This document shows positions 42,820 to 52,925 of a stretch of DNA of 56,432 bases, piece after piece. Within the stretch, counting starts at the first letter, position 1. Every line of letters begins with the position of its first letter. A model generated the notes under the pieces. The model saw nothing but the letters and a program-made list of their open reading frames with translations. It was not told the DNA's origin and did no database searches. The translations under genes were made by a program, and so were the position numbers. Source of the DNA: Nitrospira sp. (GTDB taxonomy: Bacteria; Nitrospirota; Nitrospiria; Nitrospirales; Nitrospiraceae); the NCBI GenBank assembly GCA_013140455.1, contig JABFSU010000008.1, positions 1 to 56,432 on the forward strand, given 5' to 3'.

Positions 42820-43119
42820 CTTTAATTGCGTCGTCACACGAAATTGCGAGCTGCCGGTCTTGTCTCTCTCACGATCTCCACGTGACGGCAGACGTTTGCC
42901 GCAGTGTATGCGCGTCGGGCGCCCTCGCGACAGTCTTCAGAAGGATGGGTTCCCCCTTCGAAAGAAGGGCCTACGAATGGCTGATTGCCGATGCCGAAAG
43001 TGCAGGCTTATGGTGGGTTCCGAAGCAACGGGCCCGGCGGACGAGCGAGGCCGATGGTGAAATCTTTTAGATCGCACAAGGTTTATCGCACACAGTTCAA
43101 GGGGGGAGCGCACGGTATT
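42820..43119. other. Divergent intergenic region between gspC and the sigma-54 regulator
   Basis: About 300 bases separating two diverging genes, so it should hold promoters for both. A small hairpin CCCTTC-GAAA-GAAGGG lies near 42953-42968. No GG-N10-GC site fits either direction. Short frames here look like noise. Confidence 0.5.
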
Positions 43120-44508
43120 ATGAAAGCACAGCACATGAGCGAGCTGCCGGTCAGAGTCGTGATGATCGAAGCCTCGGAGTCTTTGTGTGAGCAGGTTCAC
43201 CAAGGTGTGCGCGAGGTCTGCCATGTCGAATGGGGAACCGTACCCGCGGACGTCCTCCGGCTGGTCAGGGCGGTGGCCCCGCACATCGCGCTGCTCGACG
43301 CCGATCTGTTCAAGACGCCGGAGGGGTTCGGCGAGGCGGCGCGCGTCATTCAGGAACTCAAGCGCCTGCAGCCCGCGCTCAAAATTATTTGCACCAGCGG
43401 AGCCGGGATGGAATGCGCGCGGGCCGTCGCGCCGCTCGGCGTCTACGATGTGGTGACCAAGCCGGTCGAGGCCGGCATTCTCGTCCGGCTGATTCGCAGA
43501 GCCTGCTGGCTCTCTGCGGCGGAGTGCCATGGCGGCGCCGCCCATCGCGCGCCGGCGTCCGAGGCCTCCGAAGCCTCCGAAGAGATGATCGGCACCGGTG
43601 AAGGCATTCGACGGGTCTTCACCGCGATCAGAAAGGTCGCCACGACCGATCTGCCCGTGCTGATTACCGGAGAGAGCGGCACCGGGAAGGAATTGACGGC
43701 CAAGGCGATCCACGAGCGGAGCGGTCGCAAGGACCACCCCTTCGTCGCCATCAACTGCGGAGCCATTCCAGACACCCTCATCGAGTCGGAGCTCTTCGGG
43801 CATGAACGCGGCGCCTTCACCGGGGCCGTGCAGCAAAAGAAAGGCAAGGTCGAAGCGGCTCAAGGCGGGACGTTGTTTCTCGACGAAATCGGAGAAGTGC
43901 CCATTGCCCTCCAAGTGAAACTGCTGCGCTTTCTTCAGGAGCATCGTTTCGAACGGGTCGGTGGCCGCCAGGCCATCACGATCGACGTGCGCGTGATCGC
44001 CGCGACGAACGTGAATCTGAAAGACGCCATCGCGCGGGGCCGTTTCCGGGAGGATCTCTACTACCGCTTGGCGGTCATGCACATTCATCTTCCTCCGCTC
44101 CGGGATCGCAACGGGGACGTGCTGCTCATGGCGTCGGTCTTCCTCAGCCAGCTTGCGCACCAGCAGGGCAAGCGGGTCAAAGGATTTTCAGACGACGCCA
44201 TTCGCGCCATGAAAGCGTATCCCTGGCCGGGGAACGTCCGCGAGTTGCTGAACAAGTTGCGCCGCGGTGTGGTCATGGCTGAGGGGCCGTATGTGACGGC
44301 GAGGGATTTGGAGCTTTCCACGGGGGAAGAGGCCGTCTCACCGGAACCCTTAGGCCGTCTGCGAGAAAAGATCGAAGTCGATTTCCTCTCGCAGGCATTG
44401 GCTCGCCATCACGGCAACCTGAGCAAGGTGGCGCGGGATCTGGAAATCAGCCGGCCGACGTTGTATCGCCGGTTGCAACGGTATGGATTAGTCCGGAGAC
44501 CCGAGTAA
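43120..44508 (+). CDS. Sigma-54-dependent response regulator
   Basis: A 462-residue NtrC-type activator. Residues about 9-130 form a receiver domain with acceptor Asp60 (IALLDADLF), Thr92 and Lys114 (VTKPV). The acidic pocket is reduced (MIEASES, where most read DD). Residues about 155-385 are the AAA+ domain: Walker A GESGTGKE (184-191), GAFTGA loop (231-236) that contacts sigma-54, and Walker B TLFLDEIGE. The C-terminus is a Fis-type helix-turn-helix (GNLSKVARDLEISRPTLYRRL). Close in pattern to the PrsR group of exopolysaccharide regulators. ATG 43120 follows GGGGGGAG. The sigma-54 promoter 144 bp after its stop is its probable target. Confidence 0.92.
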   Translation: MKAQHMSELPVRVVMIEASESLCEQVHQGVREVCHVEWGTVPADVLRLVRAVAPHIALLDADLFKTPEGFGEAARVIQELKRLQPALKIICTSGAGMECARAVAPLGVYDVVTKPVEAGILVRLIRRACWLSAAECHGGAAHRAPASEASEASEEMIGTGEGIRRVFTAIRKVATTDLPVLITGESGTGKELTAKAIHERSGRKDHPFVAINCGAIPDTLIESELFGHERGAFTGAVQQKKGKVEAAQGGTLFLDEIGEVPIALQVKLLRFLQEHRFERVGGRQAITIDVRVIAATNVNLKDAIARGRFREDLYYRLAVMHIHLPPLRDRNGDVLLMASVFLSQLAHQQGKRVKGFSDDAIRAMKAYPWPGNVRELLNKLRRGVVMAEGPYVTARDLELSTGEEAVSPEPLGRLREKIEVDFLSQALARHHGNLSKVARDLEISRPTLYRRLQRYGLVRRPE

Positions 44509-44650: not shown

Positions 44651-44666
44651 CGGCACCGTATTTGCG
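44651..44666 (+). promoter_or_regulatory. Sigma-54 promoter of the amyloid-like operon
   Basis: The sequence CGGCACCGTATTTGCG has GG at 44652-44653 and GC at 44664-44665 with ten bases between, matching TGGCAC-N5-TTGCW in all but the first and last base. Transcription should begin near 44677, giving a leader of about 20 nt before the ATG at 44698. The gene just upstream encodes a sigma-54 activator with an intact GAFTGA loop. Confidence 0.8.
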
Positions 44667-44697
44667 AAGTGCCGGATACATTCGGCGAAGGGCAGGA

Positions 44698-45144
44698 ATG
44701 CATCGTATGAGGCGGTCAATGGTGACAAAGATCATGCAGCGAGCAGCCGACGCACAGCGGATGATAATTCTGGCGCTGGCGTTGACGGCCTGGCTTGCGC
44801 CGAACGCGCGTGCGTTCGGCGGAGAGGTGTGGCCGGCGACCCTCGACCACGAGGGGATGAGCCGCCCGGTGTTCCCGATGGGCGCCATGCCGGATGCATC
44901 AGTCCAGGCGATTGCGGGCACGCACGAGATGCCGGCGATCGACGCGTCACATTTTGTAACACTTTCACCGGAGGAACTCGCGACGATCGCCGGTATGGGC
45001 GTGATGCCGGAGGCGCCGGGGACCCCCACCACAGGGGTCGTACTGTGGGATGAACGACCGCAGGCCCCGGCGGTTGTCGGGGCAAACCTCAGTAGCGGAC
45101 AGCACAATCATCAGACCATCGGTGTGATGATCCAAGGGTTTTAA
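44698..45144 (+). CDS. Small exported protein with a GG-like motif and one repeat (Fap-operon first gene)
   Basis: Exported protein of 148 residues; a named family is not recognised. The signal peptide is RMIILALALTAWLAPNARA (about 21-39). Residues 89-100 read LSPEELATIAGM, fitting the double-glycine leader pattern L(-12) S(-11) E(-8) L(-7) I(-4) G(-2), though the last residue is Met. The C-terminus VVGANLSSGQHNHQTIGVMI resembles one unit of the N/Q repeats in the next four proteins. First gene behind the sigma-54 promoter, it stands where fapA stands in Pseudomonas, but I see no sequence match to FapA. Possible roles are a nucleator, chaperone or processed minor subunit. GAAGGG precedes the ATG. 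Confidence 0.75.
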   Translation: MHRMRRSMVTKIMQRAADAQRMIILALALTAWLAPNARAFGGEVWPATLDHEGMSRPVFPMGAMPDASVQAIAGTHEMPAIDASHFVTLSPEELATIAGMGVMPEAPGTPTTGVVLWDERPQAPAVVGANLSSGQHNHQTIGVMIQGF

Positions 45145-45220: not shown

Positions 45221-45280
45221 ACAGGCACAGGGTGGAATCGAGTGAAGGAGAGACGTGAATTGAACCAGAGGAGGATCACA

Positions 45281-46066
45281 ATGCGTACAACGTGGGTTTC
45301 AATCGGAATCATGGCCGGGATCGCCATTATGGCTTCCCCCGTCCGTGCCGAGGTCGTCGTGGTGGGAGAAATCAACAAAGACCGCGATGTCACCGTGACG
45401 GAGACGATCGAGAAGGTCAAGACGGTGCTCATCAACGCAGATGTTGATATCGCGCTGGAAAAGGCGGCGGAGTCCTATGCGCATGTCAACCAGCTCAATC
45501 AGGGCAACGAGGCCTGCGAGAATTGCGCCGAGAAGGCGGATATTCTCAGAGCCGCGGCCAATTACAATTCAGGTGTCCTAAGCGTCAACCAAGCGGCCGG
45601 CAACATGAACAACCAGGGCAATGCCGTGGCGGTGTCGTTCGATCAGCCGGATGCGCAACCGTCGACGGGTCGTGGCTTTGCGGATGCCACAGCGGCGGCG
45701 CACCAGATCATGCTGGAGAACACGATCGATAGCCAGAACATCGGCTTTCGTCGCACGGAGATGACCGGGTCGATGAACTTCAATAACGGCATTGCGCATG
45801 CCAATCAAGCGGCGGGCAACATCAACAACCAGGCGAACAGCGTTTCCGTGGCGGTGTCGCTGGCTCCCGGCGTGGTTCTGTCCGAGGCCGATCTCGGCCA
45901 AGTCAACCGCGGGAACAGCGTGAAGGAAGTTGACGTCAACAAATCTGCGACGATCACGAATTCCCTCAACGGGAACATCGGCATCGTGGGTGTGAACCAA
46001 GCCAGCGGCAACAATGCCAACCAGGCGAACGTGGTGGCGTTTTCCGCCGCGGCGCGGTTTAACTAA
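45281..46066 (+). CDS. Three-repeat N/Q-rich amyloid-like subunit 1 (FapB/FapC-like)
   Basis: Secreted protein of 261 residues with a Sec signal (about 1-23, ending VRA). Three repeats lie at about 97-120, 168-193 and 232-257, each of the form NxGxxxxNQAxGNxNNQxNxVxV (for example VNQAAGNMNNQGNAVAVSF). Linkers separate them; the second has LSEADLGQVNRGNSV, also found in the following paralogues. A CENC motif is at 79-82; Pseudomonas FapB and FapC also carry CxxC, but near the C-terminus. The pattern of three repeats with linkers is that of Fap fibre subunits. Curli repeats differ (S-x5-Q-x-G). GAGGAGG lies 6 nt before ATG 45281. Which subunit nucleates and which forms the fibre cannot be told. 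Confidence 0.82.
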   Translation: MRTTWVSIGIMAGIAIMASPVRAEVVVVGEINKDRDVTVTETIEKVKTVLINADVDIALEKAAESYAHVNQLNQGNEACENCAEKADILRAAANYNSGVLSVNQAAGNMNNQGNAVAVSFDQPDAQPSTGRGFADATAAAHQIMLENTIDSQNIGFRRTEMTGSMNFNNGIAHANQAAGNINNQANSVSVAVSLAPGVVLSEADLGQVNRGNSVKEVDVNKSATITNSLNGNIGIVGVNQASGNNANQANVVAFSAAARFN

Positions 46067-46083: not shown

Positions 46084-46860
46084 ATGAACAAGGTTGTGAC
46101 ATTTACCGTGGCGGCGCTGGCGATGGGCGGAGCAGCTATTGCCCAGGCCGATGTGACGGCGTTGGTCGGGGTGACCAAGGACGTCGTCATCGTCAACAGT
46201 GAGACCATTGAGATCAACAAGACCGTCGGTCTGAATGTGGTCGTCAACCAGAATCTCGACGGCGCGGCGGAGGCTCAGGCCATCGCCAGCGTCACGAATC
46301 TCGATAACGAGTACAATCTAACGGATGCCCGGTACAATTCTTCGTTGTTGAGGTCAGTGCTTGGGCATCAGGGTGTGCTCGGATTGAACCAGGACACCGG
46401 CAACATGGCCAATCAAGCCAACTTGTTGTCGGCCTCGACGACCGGAGTCGAAGGGAACAGGGGCACGTTCGCGAATGCGCAGGCGGAGGCGACCATGAAC
46501 ACCGGCGCCGGCGACAACAAGATCACGAACGTGATCGCGTCATCCACGATGACGGATTCCGTCAACCGCAACAACGGCATCATCGGGGTGAACCAGAGCA
46601 GCGGTAACATGATGAGCCAACTGACGGCGGTGGCGATGGCGATCGGGGCTGAATCCCGGATTGCGTTGTCCGAAGCCGCCTTGGGACAGACCACCAGCGC
46701 ATCCACGTTGACCCTCGACGGGACCCACAGCAGCGCCTCGATCCCCGGCTCGATCAACGGGAACGTCGGGATCATCGGCGTGAATCAATCTAGTGGCAAC
46801 AACGGAAACCAGGCCGTCAACGTCTCCGTTGCCGCGTCGTTCCTTCCCGGAACACGCTAA
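46084..46860 (+). CDS. Three-repeat amyloid-like subunit 2
   Basis: Secreted protein of 258 residues with a signal ending AIAQA (about 22). Repeats lie at about 96-118 (VLGLNQDTGNMANQANLL), 164-188 (IIGVNQSSGNMMSQLTAV) and 226-252 (IIGVNQSSGNNGNQAVNV). The shared block between repeats 2 and 3 is IALSEAALGQ. An N-terminal block LDGAAEAQAIASVTN recurs in subunit 3. There are no Cys. GAGGAGGACGAAAT precedes the ATG. It starts 17 nt after subunit 1 and is probably co-transcribed. Confidence 0.82.
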   Translation: MNKVVTFTVAALAMGGAAIAQADVTALVGVTKDVVIVNSETIEINKTVGLNVVVNQNLDGAAEAQAIASVTNLDNEYNLTDARYNSSLLRSVLGHQGVLGLNQDTGNMANQANLLSASTTGVEGNRGTFANAQAEATMNTGAGDNKITNVIASSTMTDSVNRNNGIIGVNQSSGNMMSQLTAVAMAIGAESRIALSEAALGQTTSASTLTLDGTHSSASIPGSINGNVGIIGVNQSSGNNGNQAVNVSVAASFLPGTR

Positions 46861-46893: not shown

Positions 46894-47745
46894 ATGAAGA
46901 CATTACGCATTGCGGCAATCAGCGCGCTCGGCTTGGCGATGGTCGCAGGACCAGCTTTGGCTGAGGACTCGTTTGTGTTCGTCACGAGCGATATTCTGAA
47001 GACCAAGAGCATCTCTGTCACTGAGGACACGTATACCGATAAGTATGCGGACATCCGGGTGAACGGACTGTTCGCTCCGGAAGGCGCGGCGGAGGCGCAG
47101 GCTATCGCCAACGTGACGAATTCGGGAAACAGGGTCACTACCGGTGGGAGCGAGGCCACTCAGGATGTCGAGGCCCATGCGACGATCGACAGCACGGTGG
47201 CCGGTAATAAGGGCATCTTGGGCTTCAACCAGGATGCGGGTAACTCTGTCAACCAGGGCTACAACGTGGCCGTGTCCCTGTCGAACGTGAAGTCGGTGAC
47301 GGATGCGCAGTCGTGGGTTGATCAGCGCAACCAAGAAAACACAGTCAGAGCCACGTCGCATGACTATCTTGATGGTCAAGCCAGCAAGACGGCGACGATG
47401 AAGAATACGATCGGCGCAGACAGCGCCAGTGCGCATCAAGGGCTCATCGGCGTCAACCAGAACGTCGGGAACATGAACAACCAGACCAGCTCGGTGGCGC
47501 TGGCGCTCGGCGTGGGGGCGCAGGTCGCTCTGTCCGAGTCCGCGTTGGGCCAGGTCAACATGGGCAACAAAGTGTACGAAGTCGGCACCATGAAGACGGA
47601 CCTGATTGAAAACGCCATGAACTACAACTTGGGCACGGTTCAGGTCAATCAATCGGCCGGCAACATGAACAACCAGGGCTCGTCGATTGCCATCTCGGCT
47701 ACCGTCGCTCAAGCGACGTTGGTTCCGGCAGTCAGAGGGTTCTAA
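46894..47745 (+). CDS. Three-repeat amyloid-like subunit 3
   Basis: Secreted protein of 283 residues with a signal ending ALA (about 23). Repeats lie at about 105-129 (ILGFNQDAGNSVNQGYNV), 181-206 (LIGVNQNVGNMNNQTSSV) and 245-271 (TVQVNQSAGNMNNQGSSI). The shared VALSESALGQVNMGNKV lies between repeats 2 and 3, and EGAAEAQAIANVTN near the N-terminus matches subunit 2. The first linker is longest here, with a charged stretch DAQSWVDQRNQENTV. No Cys. A GC-rich hairpin follows the stop codon. AAAGGAGG precedes the ATG. Confidence 0.82.
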   Translation: MKTLRIAAISALGLAMVAGPALAEDSFVFVTSDILKTKSISVTEDTYTDKYADIRVNGLFAPEGAAEAQAIANVTNSGNRVTTGGSEATQDVEAHATIDSTVAGNKGILGFNQDAGNSVNQGYNVAVSLSNVKSVTDAQSWVDQRNQENTVRATSHDYLDGQASKTATMKNTIGADSASAHQGLIGVNQNVGNMNNQTSSVALALGVGAQVALSESALGQVNMGNKVYEVGTMKTDLIENAMNYNLGTVQVNQSAGNMNNQGSSIAISATVAQATLVPAVRGF

Positions 47746-47787: not shown

Positions 47788-47825
47788 TCTCCGGGTGGGT
47801 TGTGCAAAGGGATTTAAAGGGATTT

Positions 47826-48626
47826 ATGGACGGACGAGACAGAGGACTCACATCGTTGATGCGGTGGCAAGTCATGGCCGGGGCCATGATTGTGTCGTTT
47901 GGGTGTCTGGGCTTCGGATTGGACGCCGTTGCGCAGGTTTCGGGGTCCGGAGGCCTCTCAACTGGTACAACGAGTTCCAGTACCATTGTAGTGGAAACGG
48001 AAGAGATCCATTTGGCCGGCACAGGCGTCGTGTCCAGTACGACAGTGGCTGCGCAAGTCATCGCCGACAATCAGATCGAACAACTCGGCGTCATCGGCAG
48101 GGTGTTGCTGCAGGATGCCTTTCACGGCAACGCCGGAATTGTGAACGTGAACCAGGAAGCCGGCAACGTGAACAACCAGGCCAATGTGCGGGTCCTGGCA
48201 TTCATGGCGACGGAAGTCGGGTCGATCATCGGGGCCTTGAATCTGGCGGTTTCTCAGAACCTGACGAACAACACGGTCGTGTCGGACGGGGGCGAGCGCA
48301 GCACGCGCATCGCCAACAGTTTCGGCAATGCGGCCGGCATCGTGGGGGTCAATCAAACCGCCGGGAACGCCAATAATCAGCTCAACGTTCTGGGGATGGC
48401 GGTCGGCGACACGCTGGGGCCGGATGCGTTGCCGATCAACGATACGACGCTCGGGCAGGTGTCCAGCGGCAAACGGGACGCGCCGGTCAATAATAGCGCT
48501 CGCGCGGATGTGATCGAGAATTCATTTAGTAATTTTCGCGGGATTGCGCAAGTCAATCAGTCGTCGGGCGATCTGAATTCGGTCGGCAATGTCTTAGGTG
48601 TTTCGTTTCAGGTTTTCAACCGGTAA
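47826..48626 (+). CDS. Three-repeat amyloid-like subunit 4
   Basis: Secreted protein of 266 residues with a long signal (WQVMAGAMIVSFGCLGFGLDAVAQ). Repeats lie at about 101-127 (IVNVNQEAGNVNNQANVRV), 167-193 (IVGVNQTAGNANNQLNVLG) and 236-262 (IAQVNQSSGDLNSVGNVLG). The third is the most degenerate. The shared linker block is reduced to INDTTLGQVSSG. It is the most diverged of the four and may be a minor or capping subunit (inference). ATG 47826 follows AAAGGG; the leader contains a 10-bp tandem repeat AAAGGGATTT. Confidence 0.78.
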   Translation: MDGRDRGLTSLMRWQVMAGAMIVSFGCLGFGLDAVAQVSGSGGLSTGTTSSSTIVVETEEIHLAGTGVVSSTTVAAQVIADNQIEQLGVIGRVLLQDAFHGNAGIVNVNQEAGNVNNQANVRVLAFMATEVGSIIGALNLAVSQNLTNNTVVSDGGERSTRIANSFGNAAGIVGVNQTAGNANNQLNVLGMAVGDTLGPDALPINDTTLGQVSSGKRDAPVNNSARADVIENSFSNFRGIAQVNQSSGDLNSVGNVLGVSFQVFNR

Positions 48627-48634
48627 GGAGTTCC

Positions 48635-49315
48635 ATGAAGGCTTGCTTCGTCGTTGCGATGCTGATCTGGGCCGTCTGCGCGGATTCCGCCTGGGCGAAT
48701 CCTCCGATTCCACTGCCGGGCGGGTCGATGCTGGCCAATGTTCCGGTCAAGAGCCTCGTCGAACTCCGGTTTCAGAATATCGAACGGCAGGCCTACGACA
48801 TCAGTTGCGGGGCCGCCGCGATGGCGACGCTGCTCAAGTACTATTATCAGGAAGATGTTCGTGAGCAGAGTCTCGTCGATGCGATGATCGCGGTGGGCGA
48901 CAAGGACAAGATCCAGCAGGAGGGGTTCTCGCTGTTGGAAATGAAACGGTTTGCCGAGCAGCGGGGATATGTGGCCAACGGATATCGTATTAGTGACGTA
49001 CAGAAGCTGGCCAATCTCAAGATCCCGTATGTGGCGTTGGTCAACGTTCGTGGGTATGCGCATTTCGTGATCGTCAAGGGAATTGCAGACGGGGAAGTCT
49101 TCATTGCCGATCCGGCCTACGGCAATCGCTCCCGGACGCTCGAAAGTTTTGCCAATGAATGGAACGGTGTCATCCTGGTCATTTTGCATTCGAGCCGGGA
49201 GGGGAACAGCGACTTTACGATGGACACACTGCCTAAGGCGTCGATGGGGCAGGTGGTGCCGATTATTCAGCGGTTAGGCAGCGCTATCTGGCCACGAGGG
49301 GCTGCCGAGTATTGA
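48635..49315 (+). CDS. C39-type cysteine peptidase (FapD-like)
   Basis: Exported 226-residue papain-like peptidase with a signal of about 22 residues. Catalytic Cys58 is in YDISCGAAAMATLL, His143 in GYAHFVIVKG, and Asp159 in FIADPAYG; Gln52 fits the oxyanion position. In bacteriocin exporters C39 domains cut after double-glycine leaders. As a stand-alone exported protein between amyloid subunits and a barrel gene, this matches FapD, which is needed for Fap fibre formation in Pseudomonas. Candidate substrates with the leader pattern are encoded at 44698 and 49376. AAGGAG lies 6 nt before the ATG. It begins 8 nt after subunit 4. Confidence 0.9.
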   Translation: MKACFVVAMLIWAVCADSAWANPPIPLPGGSMLANVPVKSLVELRFQNIERQAYDISCGAAAMATLLKYYYQEDVREQSLVDAMIAVGDKDKIQQEGFSLLEMKRFAEQRGYVANGYRISDVQKLANLKIPYVALVNVRGYAHFVIVKGIADGEVFIADPAYGNRSRTLESFANEWNGVILVILHSSREGNSDFTMDTLPKASMGQVVPIIQRLGSAIWPRGAAEY

Positions 49316-49375: not shown

Positions 49376-49846
49376 ATGTTGAAGCAGGTGAGTATGTGGA
49401 TGTTGGCCATGATGCTCGGAGCCGTTCCCGCGGCCGTCGCCGGCCCGCTGCACGATCTGTTGCCGTCTGATGAGTGGGCGACTCCGTTGTCTGAGCCGGA
49501 AATGGCCGGGATCCGTGGAGGATTCAACGGGCTGGCGTTCAACGTGATGTTCTCGGGATACTATACAAATGTCGGTCAGGTCGAAGGGAGTCTGGCTGTG
49601 GATACGACCGGTACGCTGACGACCGGGCCTGTGCCGACCCCGACTCCATCTGCCACTGTGCAAAACGGGCAGGTGAACATTTCAACGAGCGTCGGGAACT
49701 TTAACGGCTCCAGCGGCATTTTCCAGATTACGCAGGTGCCGGGGAATTTCAACGTCGTGAATAACAATCTATTCGTGCAGATTGCGATGGTGAATCTCCA
49801 GCCGGGTAGCCGGCTTCCGAGTCTGGCGGACTTGTTCAGACCTTGA
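49376..49846 (+). CDS. Exported small protein with a canonical double-glycine motif (FapE position)
   Basis: A 156-residue protein with a Sec signal (about 1-22). Residues 38-49 are LSEPEMAGIRGG, which match the C39 leader consensus at every key site: L-12, S-11, E-8, M-7, I-4, G-2, G-1. It sits after the signal peptide, so any cut would occur in the periplasm. The C-terminal half has a repeat-like NGSSGIFQITQVPGNFNVVN, close to the subunit repeats. The gene lies between the peptidase and the barrel gene, as fapE does. I see no direct sequence match to FapE. GGAGGGAG precedes the ATG. Confidence 0.72.
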   Translation: MLKQVSMWMLAMMLGAVPAAVAGPLHDLLPSDEWATPLSEPEMAGIRGGFNGLAFNVMFSGYYTNVGQVEGSLAVDTTGTLTTGPVPTPTPSATVQNGQVNISTSVGNFNGSSGIFQITQVPGNFNVVNNNLFVQIAMVNLQPGSRLPSLADLFRP

Positions 49847-49919: not shown

Positions 49920-50116
49920 CTTTGGATGATCTCCTTCAATACCTCCGGTTGTCGGCGGGACTTTTCCTGCCGGTTGCCGCTTGTGCCGCGCCTGCTCCGT
50001 GGCGAAGTCCGGCTTTTTTCTTGATCACTCCTTGATCTGTGATAGATCTAACGGCACAGGTCCGGCGAGTGGAATCTTGCCGCCGTGACATCTCTTTGAA
50101 TCCAGGAGGGTCCGCT

Positions 50117-51436
50117 TTGAGTTCACTTCCGGTGCTTCGTTATGTGCGTGCCGCCCTATGCAGTCTCAGTTCAATTCTTGCCGTATGCGCCGGGACCGTT
50201 CCGCTCCTTTCGCTCCCGGCCGAGGCCGCTCAGACACTCGTGGGCCAAAGTCCGGTTTCGCAGCCGCCGAATGCCTTGCCTGTTCCCCAGGGGCCGGAGT
50301 CGATCGGCGACGGCGCAACTTCCGGGCCTGCGCTGCCTGTGCCGTCGGCTCCGCAGCCGCTCGATGCGCCCCCCTCATCGCAAGGGCCGGAACCGATGAA
50401 CTCGGGCGCGCTGAGCGCGCCGATGGCTCCGTTGAAGGCGCTGTCATCGTCGGTCATGAGTGAGCCGGAGCGGCCCAAATCTGAAAAGCCCATCGACCAG
50501 CTTTCCCTTTCCCGAGGGGCCATTCTGCTGCCCAAAGGCATGCTGCAAGTGGAGCCGTTCGCGGACTACACGCGCATCTCGTCCGATCGCGTCGCCATCA
50601 ACGGATTTTCGGTATTCGAAGCCATCGTGGTCGGGACCATCCGGGTCGATCGCGTGTTCCGCGACATTTACACGACCGGAGTCAATGTTCGGTACGGACT
50701 GCTCAACCGGCTTCAACTGGAAGCCCGCGTACCATACGTGTACCGGCAGGATCGGGAGTTGACCGGAATCGGTACCACTCAGGAAGCCGACCGCACCATC
50801 CACCACGCCGACATCGGCGATGTGGAAGGCTCGCTGGTTTACCAAGCGGTGATCGGCACGGATGTGTTGCCTGACGTCCTGCTGCGGCTCAAGGGCCGCG
50901 TCCCCACGGGGACCGATTCATTCGAAGTCCCGACGACCATCGGACAGGGGGGCGAGGTCCGGCTGTTGAAGACCCCGACGGGGAACGGCTTTTATACCGT
51001 AGCGCCCGGCATTCAAATGGTCTGGCGCACGGACCCGGTCGTCTATTACGTGGGTGGAAATCTTCTGATGAATCTGGAGCGCAATGTCGGCGGCGCGGTC
51101 GGCATCGTGACGCCGGGCAATACGACGGAGTTTTTTTTCGGTTTGAACCTCTCGGTCAGCGAACGGGTCTCGCTGAACATGACGTTCTACGATTCGTGGA
51201 CCGATAATACGCGCCAGAACGGCAGACGGATCGCCGGGACCTCCTTCAACAGCGGGCTGCTGTTACTCGGTACCGCGTTGTCGCTGAATCCCACCACGAC
51301 GCTTCTGGTGACCGGGGGGATCGGGATCACGAAGGAGTCGCCTGACTTCCAGCTGGTCGTCAGCCTGCCCTTGACGTTCAGATTGCCGAGTGCCTTGCAA
51401 CTGCCGGACAAGCTGCCCTGGCTGTCCGGATCCTGA
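50117..51436 (+). CDS. Outer-membrane beta-barrel protein (FapF-like exporter)
   Basis: A 439-residue outer-membrane protein with a signal (LCSLSSILAVCAGTVPLLSLPAEA). About 100 residues of Pro/Ser-rich linker follow (to about residue 130). Then come alternating beta strands to the C-terminus: ISRGAI-like start, GVNVRYGLLNRLQLEARVPYVY, LLRLKGRVPTGTDSF, YYVGGNLLMNL, ERVSLNMTFYDSW, TTLLVTGGIGI. FapF, the Fap subunit exporter, also has an N-terminal periplasmic segment before its barrel; here no coiled coil is obvious. TTG 50117 is chosen because AGGAGG stands 7 nt before it; GTG 50039 gives 26 unlikely extra residues. Eight consecutive T bases encode the FFF at 51131-51138. Confidence 0.78.
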   Translation: MSSLPVLRYVRAALCSLSSILAVCAGTVPLLSLPAEAAQTLVGQSPVSQPPNALPVPQGPESIGDGATSGPALPVPSAPQPLDAPPSSQGPEPMNSGALSAPMAPLKALSSSVMSEPERPKSEKPIDQLSLSRGAILLPKGMLQVEPFADYTRISSDRVAINGFSVFEAIVVGTIRVDRVFRDIYTTGVNVRYGLLNRLQLEARVPYVYRQDRELTGIGTTQEADRTIHHADIGDVEGSLVYQAVIGTDVLPDVLLRLKGRVPTGTDSFEVPTTIGQGGEVRLLKTPTGNGFYTVAPGIQMVWRTDPVVYYVGGNLLMNLERNVGGAVGIVTPGNTTEFFFGLNLSVSERVSLNMTFYDSWTDNTRQNGRRIAGTSFNSGLLLLGTALSLNPTTTLLVTGGIGITKESPDFQLVVSLPLTFRLPSALQLPDKLPWLSGS

Positions 51437-51600: not shown

Positions 51601-52716
51601 TTACTGAAGGGCTTCCTGCGGAGCGGCCTCCTTGGGGTTCTTGGGCGATGAGGATCTGTCAGGTGCGGCGCTTTCGGCAGCGGCTGGTTGAGAGGCCTCC
51701 AGCCGCCGGACCGCGGACTCCGCAAATCGGTTGTCGACGTATCCGTCGAGTTTCGGTAGGACTTTCAGAATTCCCCCTTCTTTGAGGCCCCATCCGTTGT
51801 ACTCTGCATCCGCCGTATCGCTGGCCGTCCAGATCGGCCGATCATACTTCGTCATGGCGATCCAGGACTTGGTGAGTTCCGGGGTGACGGCGCGCAACCC
51901 CTGCCGGTGAAAGAAGATGGCCAGGAGGCGCGCGGCGTCGTCTGGGTCTTGCTGAATGTACTTGAGCGATTTCACCCAGGCGTTCGCAAAACGCTGGACG
52001 GTGTCCGGTTCCTTCTCAATCAGCTCCGCCCGTACGATGACGGGCGCGGCGGCGATTAATCCGAGCAGGTTGGTCAGATCTTCCGCCCCCATCAACACGT
52101 GGGCGTTGCCGCCTTTCATCACAGCCGAGGTAAAATGCCGGGATTCGAAAATACCGTCGGCCAGGGGCGTCTTCTGGTCGAGCGCTTTCGTCAGGGAGTC
52201 GGGGGGGAGAAGCTTGATCGTCACATCGGAGGGGCGCAGCTTGAATTTGTTCAGGAGGCGAATGAGAACCGGATGGGCTTCCGATCCAACGCCGATGGCG
52301 ATCGTTTTCCCTTTGAGGTCGGCCACCGATTTCACGGCCGGTTGCTGATCCGAGATCACCAGCTCCATTTGAGTGCCCCATCCGTTCAACGAGAGGATCC
52401 GGAGCGGCAGCTTGAGCGCGGCCATGATCAGGCCTCCTCGTTGCGATACGGCGGCAATATCCGTCGAGCCCGAGCTGAGCGACCCGATAAGCGCTTCCGT
52501 CGAGCTGATGGTCAAGCCGTTGACGACCAGATGCTCCTGGGAAAACAGGCCGCGCTCTATCGCCACGATCGCCGGCAAGGCGTCCCAGCCGCTGCTGTAG
52601 GCGAGGCGGATGAGTTTCCAATCCCCGGCATGGCTCCATACCGGGGTGAGGACGATACTTGCGATCACCAACAGACGGTATACGGACGATTTGGCTTGAG
52701 TCACTCTTGCCTCCAT
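51601..52716 (-). CDS. ABC-type substrate-binding protein (NMT1/SsuA-like)
   Basis: Periplasmic binding protein of 371 residues. The signal is YRLLVIASIVLTPVWSHA. The fold is that of nitrate/sulfonate/thiamine-precursor binding proteins: IRLAYSSGWDALPAIVAIERGLF, then STEALIGSLSSGSTDIAAV, then VADLKGKTIAIGVGSEAHPVLI. The last 40 residues are Pro/Ala/Ser-rich. No permease or ATPase gene is near, so the ligand cannot be inferred. ATG 52716 was chosen because it precedes the signal; longer readings to 52875 add a polar, improbable stretch. Confidence 0.82.
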   Translation of the reverse strand: MEARVTQAKSSVYRLLVIASIVLTPVWSHAGDWKLIRLAYSSGWDALPAIVAIERGLFSQEHLVVNGLTISSTEALIGSLSSGSTDIAAVSQRGGLIMAALKLPLRILSLNGWGTQMELVISDQQPAVKSVADLKGKTIAIGVGSEAHPVLIRLLNKFKLRPSDVTIKLLPPDSLTKALDQKTPLADGIFESRHFTSAVMKGGNAHVLMGAEDLTNLLGLIAAAPVIVRAELIEKEPDTVQRFANAWVKSLKYIQQDPDDAARLLAIFFHRQGLRAVTPELTKSWIAMTKYDRPIWTASDTADAEYNGWGLKEGGILKVLPKLDGYVDNRFAESAVRRLEASQPAAAESAAPDRSSSPKNPKEAAPQEALQ

Positions 52717-52925
52717 TTCAGTTACGTCGAGGTTTTGCGCGGACCTGATGCTGCGCGCATGGCGGCCGATGCCATTTCGGTCCTGGCCGATGACGCCGTC
52801 CACTGTCTCTGTTTTAGCTTGAAACGGTGTACAGTCAAGCCGATATCGATTTTCACCACCTGCGTAGGAAGCCACAGCTGCCCGTCCTCCGCAGTCGTCT
52901 GTTACGGAGAGTGAATGAACCCGCT

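Follow-up and report, generated by a model that had tools for sequence, protein, structure and literature searches.

A secreted FapE-like protein with a double-glycine leader behind its export signal points to a target of the FapD-like C39 peptidase

Introduction

Double-glycine leaders are normally read inside the cell, where the C39 domain of an ABC exporter cuts them from bacteriocins. What, then, is such a leader doing behind the Sec signal peptide of a secreted protein, next to a C39 peptidase that is itself exported? This question is raised by a gene at 49376-49846 of a 56,432-nt contig from a 3.79 Mb draft genome of Nitrospira sp. (GCA_013140455.1, contig JABFSU010000008.1; this whole stretch is referred to below as the window). 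A first-pass annotation, made from the sequence alone, proposed that the motif at residues 38-49 is a C39 leader, that cleavage would be periplasmic and that the neighboring peptidase is FapD-type. The question has a wider bearing, since FapD is essential for Fap amyloid secretion in Pseudomonas while its substrate was reported as unknown (PMC5557850) and undetermined in a 2018 review (PMC6173800).

Results

The leader lies in a Fap-like amyloid cluster

To place the gene in its context, we searched the window with Pfam and NCBIfam profiles. Reading on the plus strand from 44.7 to 51.4 kb, we identified a Fap-like amyloid cluster with amyloid subunits, a C39 peptidase and a FapF-like channel together:

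44713-45144 (+), first gene of the cluster, at the FapA position; signal peptide plus leader-like LSPEELATIAGM (44962-44997)
45242-46066 (+), FapC/FapB-like amyloid subunit 1 (start uncertain); NCBIfam FapC E 6.9e-17
46084-46860 (+), FapC/FapB-like amyloid subunit 2; FapC E 4.8e-13
46894-47745 (+), FapC/FapB-like amyloid subunit 3; FapC E 2.3e-9
47802-48626 (+), FapC/FapB-like amyloid subunit 4 (start uncertain); FapC E 6e-13, FapB E 9.4e-13
48635-49315 (+), exported FapD-like C39 cysteine peptidase; catalytic Cys58 codon at 48806-48808
49376-49441 (+), Sec signal peptide of the FapE-like protein (residues 1-22, predicted cut between AVA and GP)
49442-49522 (+), predicted periplasmic propeptide, residues 23-49, ending in the leader LSEPEMAGIRGG (49487-49522)
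49523-49846 (+), predicted mature FapE-like subunit starting at F50 (107 aa, stop included in the coordinates), with an amyloid-type repeat GNFNGSSGIFQITQVPGNFNVVNNNLFVQIAMVNL
50039-51436 (+), FapF/FilC-like outer-membrane export channel (start uncertain); NCBIfam FapF E 1.3e-33

The peptidase matches Pfam C39 (PF03412) at 82 bits (E 3.8e-23), over the cut-off of 22, and has its own signal peptide, Cys58, His143, Asp159 and the oxyanion Gln52. Its match to NCBIfam FapD (NF058616) is strong (160 bits, E 4.8e-47) but below the equivalog cut-off of 330, and the channel reaches 116 bits against a FapF cut-off of 700; we therefore call these genes FapD-like and FapF-like. The protein at 49376-49846 (156 aa) has no Pfam family, no match to NCBIfam FapE (NF058559, cut-off 250) and only a weak FapB match over its C-terminal repeat (E 0.0027). 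Its closest orthologue, in locus L018 (the handle of one of the peptidase loci collected below), matches FapE only at E 0.06. We call the protein FapE-like by its position, its leader and the alignment described below. A sigma54-type activator gene lies just upstream of the cluster (42985-44508), and similar activator frames precede the cluster in L022, L023 and L025-L029, suggesting conserved regulation. Small frames between activator and first subunit in several loci (window 44662-45144; L021 7820-8389; L023 8107-8388) share a short conserved peptide VVLWDExP. On the other side of the cluster is a substrate-binding-protein-like gene on the minus strand (51601-52875; SSGWDALPAIVAIERG), whose homologue lies beside the cluster in L018 (12107-13144) in the other orientation.

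The motif is not a chance match

The ATG at 49376 has a good ribosome site (TTGGAGGGAGAGAGC-ATG). The signal peptide, judged by eye, is MLKQVSMWMLAMMLGAVPAAVA followed by GP, and after a further 15 residues comes LSEPEMAGIRGG, exactly where the first-pass annotation put it. It has L at -12, M at -7, I at -4 and GG, and fits the published consensus LSxxELxxIxGG (PMC3897388). To ask how often such a motif arises by chance, we scanned 5,851 ORFs (789,184 residues) from 1.2 Mb of a same-genus genome. The strict string LSxxE[LM]xxIxGG occurs 0 times in this background, whereas the looser class consensus occurs in 6 of the 5,851 ORFs and, in the window, only in this ORF. With a leader profile the ORF ranks first of 328 window ORFs, at 21.9 bits against 9.9 for the next. 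A profile trained on 73 distinct leaders taken only from loci of named species and plasmids, and thus without any locus from the scan of this genome's own family or phylum, scores it 18.7, against a background maximum of 15.1 and scores of 18-28 in same-phylum genomes.

The leader is conserved next to FapD-like peptidases

To examine whether the motif is conserved in orthologous loci, the test on which the first-pass annotation had staked its reading, we turned to relatives of the peptidase, as the window protein itself finds only one relative in the family. The closest relative of the peptidase (55% identical) is followed by a protein with PLTDNELADLRGGFNGLAFN, which the first-pass annotation had missed, against PLSEPEMAGIRGGFNGLAFN here. 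Related genomes of a second clade (L019-L030) have a more distant peptidase flanked on both sides by signal-peptide proteins, with xPxxQLDxQRGGTD upstream and PVSExVLDxMRGGFQ downstream. We then collected peptidases from plasmids, named genomes (583 relatives confirmed, 80 kept) and the phylum. Choosing the downstream gene by ORF length alone picks some wrong frames in GC-rich genomes, and mature-domain matches, checked by hand, were used instead. Of 108 FapD-like peptidase loci, 106 have a signal peptide or other pro-region plus the leader in the gene directly downstream; L133 and L137 do not. In one Vibrio plasmid locus (L042 6001-6673) the FapD-like frame is broken around the catalytic Cys while the leader gene next to it is intact, indicating sequencing error or decay.

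Across 98 downstream genes (one row, L081, is out of register), the leader has V/L/I/M at -12 in 94, L/M at -7 in 97, R at -3 in 88 and G at -2 in 98, with G (80), R (11) or K (7) at -1 and F/Y at +1 in 86; -4 is M/L/Q/I/V/Y. The mature-domain profile was trained on sequences picked with a loose motif (L/I/V/M at -7, RG[GR]), so -12, -11, -8 and -4 are the unbiased columns. When the gene was chosen by position only, 41 of 106 reached 4-5 of 5 canonical classes, against 2.4 expected from shuffles. The control ORFs first used for comparison contain real upstream leader genes and overstate the background; the same-genus background above replaces them. In an alignment of 28 such proteins, with 12-53% identity to the window protein and a mean column identity of 18%, Arg(-3) and Gly(-2), R47 and G48 here, are the only invariant columns besides Met1. 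Glu at -8 is less diagnostic than the first-pass annotation assumed, and Arg at -3 and Phe/Tyr at +1, which it did not list, are stronger hallmarks.

Interestingly, the leader sits at the boundary between a variable pro-region and the conserved mature domain, even where the pro-region of a FapE-like protein is about 230-680 aa long (L099, L120, L082 and L096; L115 also has a pro-region of such length). The same leader also occurs in a different gene of many loci, upstream of the peptidase. In the second clade, 12 of 13 upstream genes score 17-27 with a profile trained only on downstream genes of the named-species and plasmid loci; the exception, L020, is a wrong-frame pick whose true frame reads VPSAQLDAQRGG. 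About 60 of 105 upstream ORFs chosen by position have a recognizable leader with G, R, K, Q or M at -1. The two gene types share a C-terminal IQN-type repeat, so this evidence is not fully independent and their leaders may be partly shared ancestry. A cleaner case is an Acinetobacter plasmid (L039 2474-5664), where three paralogous small proteins without that repeat, each with a signal peptide plus LSRQEMKDTQGA, lie beside a stand-alone C39 peptidase.

The conserved positions are those read by a known C39 enzyme

In LahT the leader binds with -4, -7 and -12 in a hydrophobic groove and forms a two-turn helix from -11 to -4; changes at -7, -4 and -12 harm, whereas changes at -8, -5 and -3 do not (PMC6363468). 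Consistent with this, -12, -7, -4 and -2/-1 are the conserved positions here, while -8 varies. The predicted fold of the window peptidase matches PCAT1, ComA and LahT at Z 18.7-20.0, including the leader-bound structure 6mpz at Z 18.7, and the catalytic residues are kept in nearly all peptidases. The predicted structure of the FapE-like protein is of low confidence (pLDDT 56); its helix at 40-46, over the leader, agrees with the LahT-bound leader but is weak evidence.

Pseudomonas FapE carries the leader with GR in place of GG

The downstream gene in Pseudomonas and Halopseudomonas is FapE by the NCBIfam equivalog, with 7 of 7 loci over the cut-off, and these carry the leader. It has the form LxDxELxxLRGR followed by Y, or more generally [LIVM]xDxE[LM][AS]xLRG[RK][YF]V, and is readable in 55 of 56 Pseudomonas-type sequences sampled (one row picked the wrong frame), with Glu(-8), Leu(-4) and Arg(-3) at 1.00 and Gly(-2) at 0.98. 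FapB, FapC and FapF have none. In a midpoint-rooted peptidase tree the window belongs with the classical FapD clade of Pseudomonas, Aeromonas and Paraburkholderia (100/96 support). The early branches of this clade (window, L018, L134, L135, L136) keep GG, while Pseudomonas and Aeromonas have GR and Paraburkholderia GK. The published statement that Fap proteins lack canonical C39 motifs (PMC5557850) is explained by drift at this one residue. The same paper reports that FapE is the only Fap protein whose N-terminus was missing in mass spectra and that FapD C38A blocks secretion.

Pseudomonas FapA (L095 3826-4275, L104 3969-4445, L079 3411-3848) has an in-register LSDGDFASISSG-type motif that ends in SG instead of GG, a possible non-cut mimic that could regulate FapD. 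The first gene of the window cluster, at the same position, has LSPEELATIAGM, also missed by the first-pass annotation. The window motif scores weakly (8.3), and we found no homologue of this gene in 147 family genomes, so the motif remains unproven. The published peptides of FapA speak against a cut.

Discussion

Our results support the first-pass interpretation, and we consider the following explanation well supported, although cleavage itself is inferred from comparison of sequences. The protein at 49376-49846 is the FapE-like minor subunit of a Fap-like amyloid secretion cluster and probably the substrate of the exported C39 peptidase encoded 60 bp upstream. Sec export and removal of the signal peptide at AVA/GP are inferred; signal peptides were judged by eye and by a crude hydropathy rule. 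In the periplasm the second leader, a two-turn helix LSEPEMAGI with hydrophobic side chains at -12, -7 and -4, would dock in the C39 groove, and Cys58 would cut after Gly49. The predicted cut falls within GPLHDLLPSDEWATPLSEPEMAGIRGGFNGLAFN, at GPLHDLLPSDEWATPLSEPEMAGIRGG-FNGLAFN, and would release a 107-residue mature subunit starting at Phe50. From the published FapD C38A phenotype we infer that the matured subunit then leaves through the FapF-like channel and licenses fiber secretion. Conservation of a motif shows constraint and not cleavage, and no experiment exists on this locus. It should also be noted that in Pseudomonas no FapE peptide was seen up to about residue 70, further than the predicted cut near residue 39 (PMC5557850), and that P1 is Arg or Lys in Pseudomonas, Aeromonas and Paraburkholderia, which known C39 enzymes are not reported to accept in the papers read.

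Other explanations appear less likely. It is possible, though unlikely, that the leader is a docking or targeting element that the C39 protein binds without cutting, or that guides FapE to the FapF channel. C39-like domains without catalysis, as in type 1 exporters, do bind substrates (PMC5557850, PMC6363468), the GG is not always kept (GR, GK), and FapA has its SG-ended motif although FapA peptides were seen along the sequence. However, Cys, His and Asp are conserved in nearly all peptidases, C38A of FapD abolishes secretion, and Gly(-2) is present in all 98 aligned leaders, with GG at the predicted scissile position in most. Even less likely is that the leader only positions FapE for a cut at another GG or GA site, about residue 67 in Pseudomonas. 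This could be read from the published mass spectra, in which the first ~70 residues of FapE gave no peptides, and GG/GA motifs were noted by the authors (PMC5557850). Yet in the reference FapE the Gly-Ala near residue 66 is 0.84/0.80 conserved within Pseudomonas, against 0.98-1.00 for leader R and G, and no equivalent column is conserved in the wider family.

The genome has one other C39 protein, with a 746-residue open frame as expected of an ABC exporter, and the motif fits the usual substrates of such exporters. A classical bacteriocin-type precursor for this exporter is nonetheless very unlikely, since the leader lies behind a Sec signal peptide here and behind a hydrophobic segment in 91 of 98 relatives by a crude hydropathy test, and the linkage is with the exported peptidase while the ABC enzyme is on another contig. 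A chance match of a short motif in a secreted protein can be all but dismissed given the profile scores and the conservation in the orthologue and in 106 of 108 loci.

The closest known system is the Pseudomonas Fap system, which shares the gene order of subunits, C39 peptidase, FapE-like protein and FapF, and whose FapE carries the same leader. The window differs in keeping GG and in having four FapC-like subunits, and the published work did not identify this leader. Compared with the double-glycine leaders of bacteriocins and RiPPs cut by the C39 domain of ABC exporters (LahT, ComA, PCAT1), the leader here lies behind a Sec signal peptide and is inferred to be cut in the periplasm by a stand-alone exported peptidase, with near-constant Arg at -3 and Phe/Tyr at +1. 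The nap island of Neisseria (NapP C39, the FapF homologue NapF and GG peptides; PMC11798529) provides a precedent, as its authors model periplasmic C39 cleavage, but for small cationic peptides active in autolysis with an inner-membrane holin proposed for export, not Sec-exported amyloid subunits. A C39 peptidase fragment in a genome of the window's family (L031 1-1240), followed by two small proteins with LSETELARVEGG (no signal peptide) and LSDTELATVEGG (signal peptide), is reminiscent of this island. The window peptidase also matches FilB (E 3.5e-35) of the Acinetobacter Fil-type loci, a putative pilus system in which the mature parts differ. What is new here is the leader in FapE-type amyloid subunits behind a Sec signal; we found no papers on FapE cleavage or on FilB with C39 beyond those cited, although most subscription papers were outside the search and prior description cannot be excluded.

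More tentatively, these loci may reflect a general two-leader export route of diderm bacteria, with a Sec signal first and then a C39 leader read in the periplasm by stand-alone C39 peptidases before passage through FapF-type channels. Such a route would cover FapE-like subunits, a second upstream subunit, Fil/Nap-type peptides and FapA, whose SG-ended leader would act as a non-cut mimic that regulates FapD.

Overall, the comparative evidence points to FapE and its relatives as the substrate of FapD, and to the recognition motif and the bond that would be cut. It also explains why the motif was overlooked: in Pseudomonas P1 drifted from Gly to Arg, so the motif no longer reads GG and the predicted cut coincides with a trypsin site, where tryptic mass spectrometry would not reveal it. 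Cleavage at this site would move a leader code known from the cytoplasmic face of ABC exporters into the periplasm.
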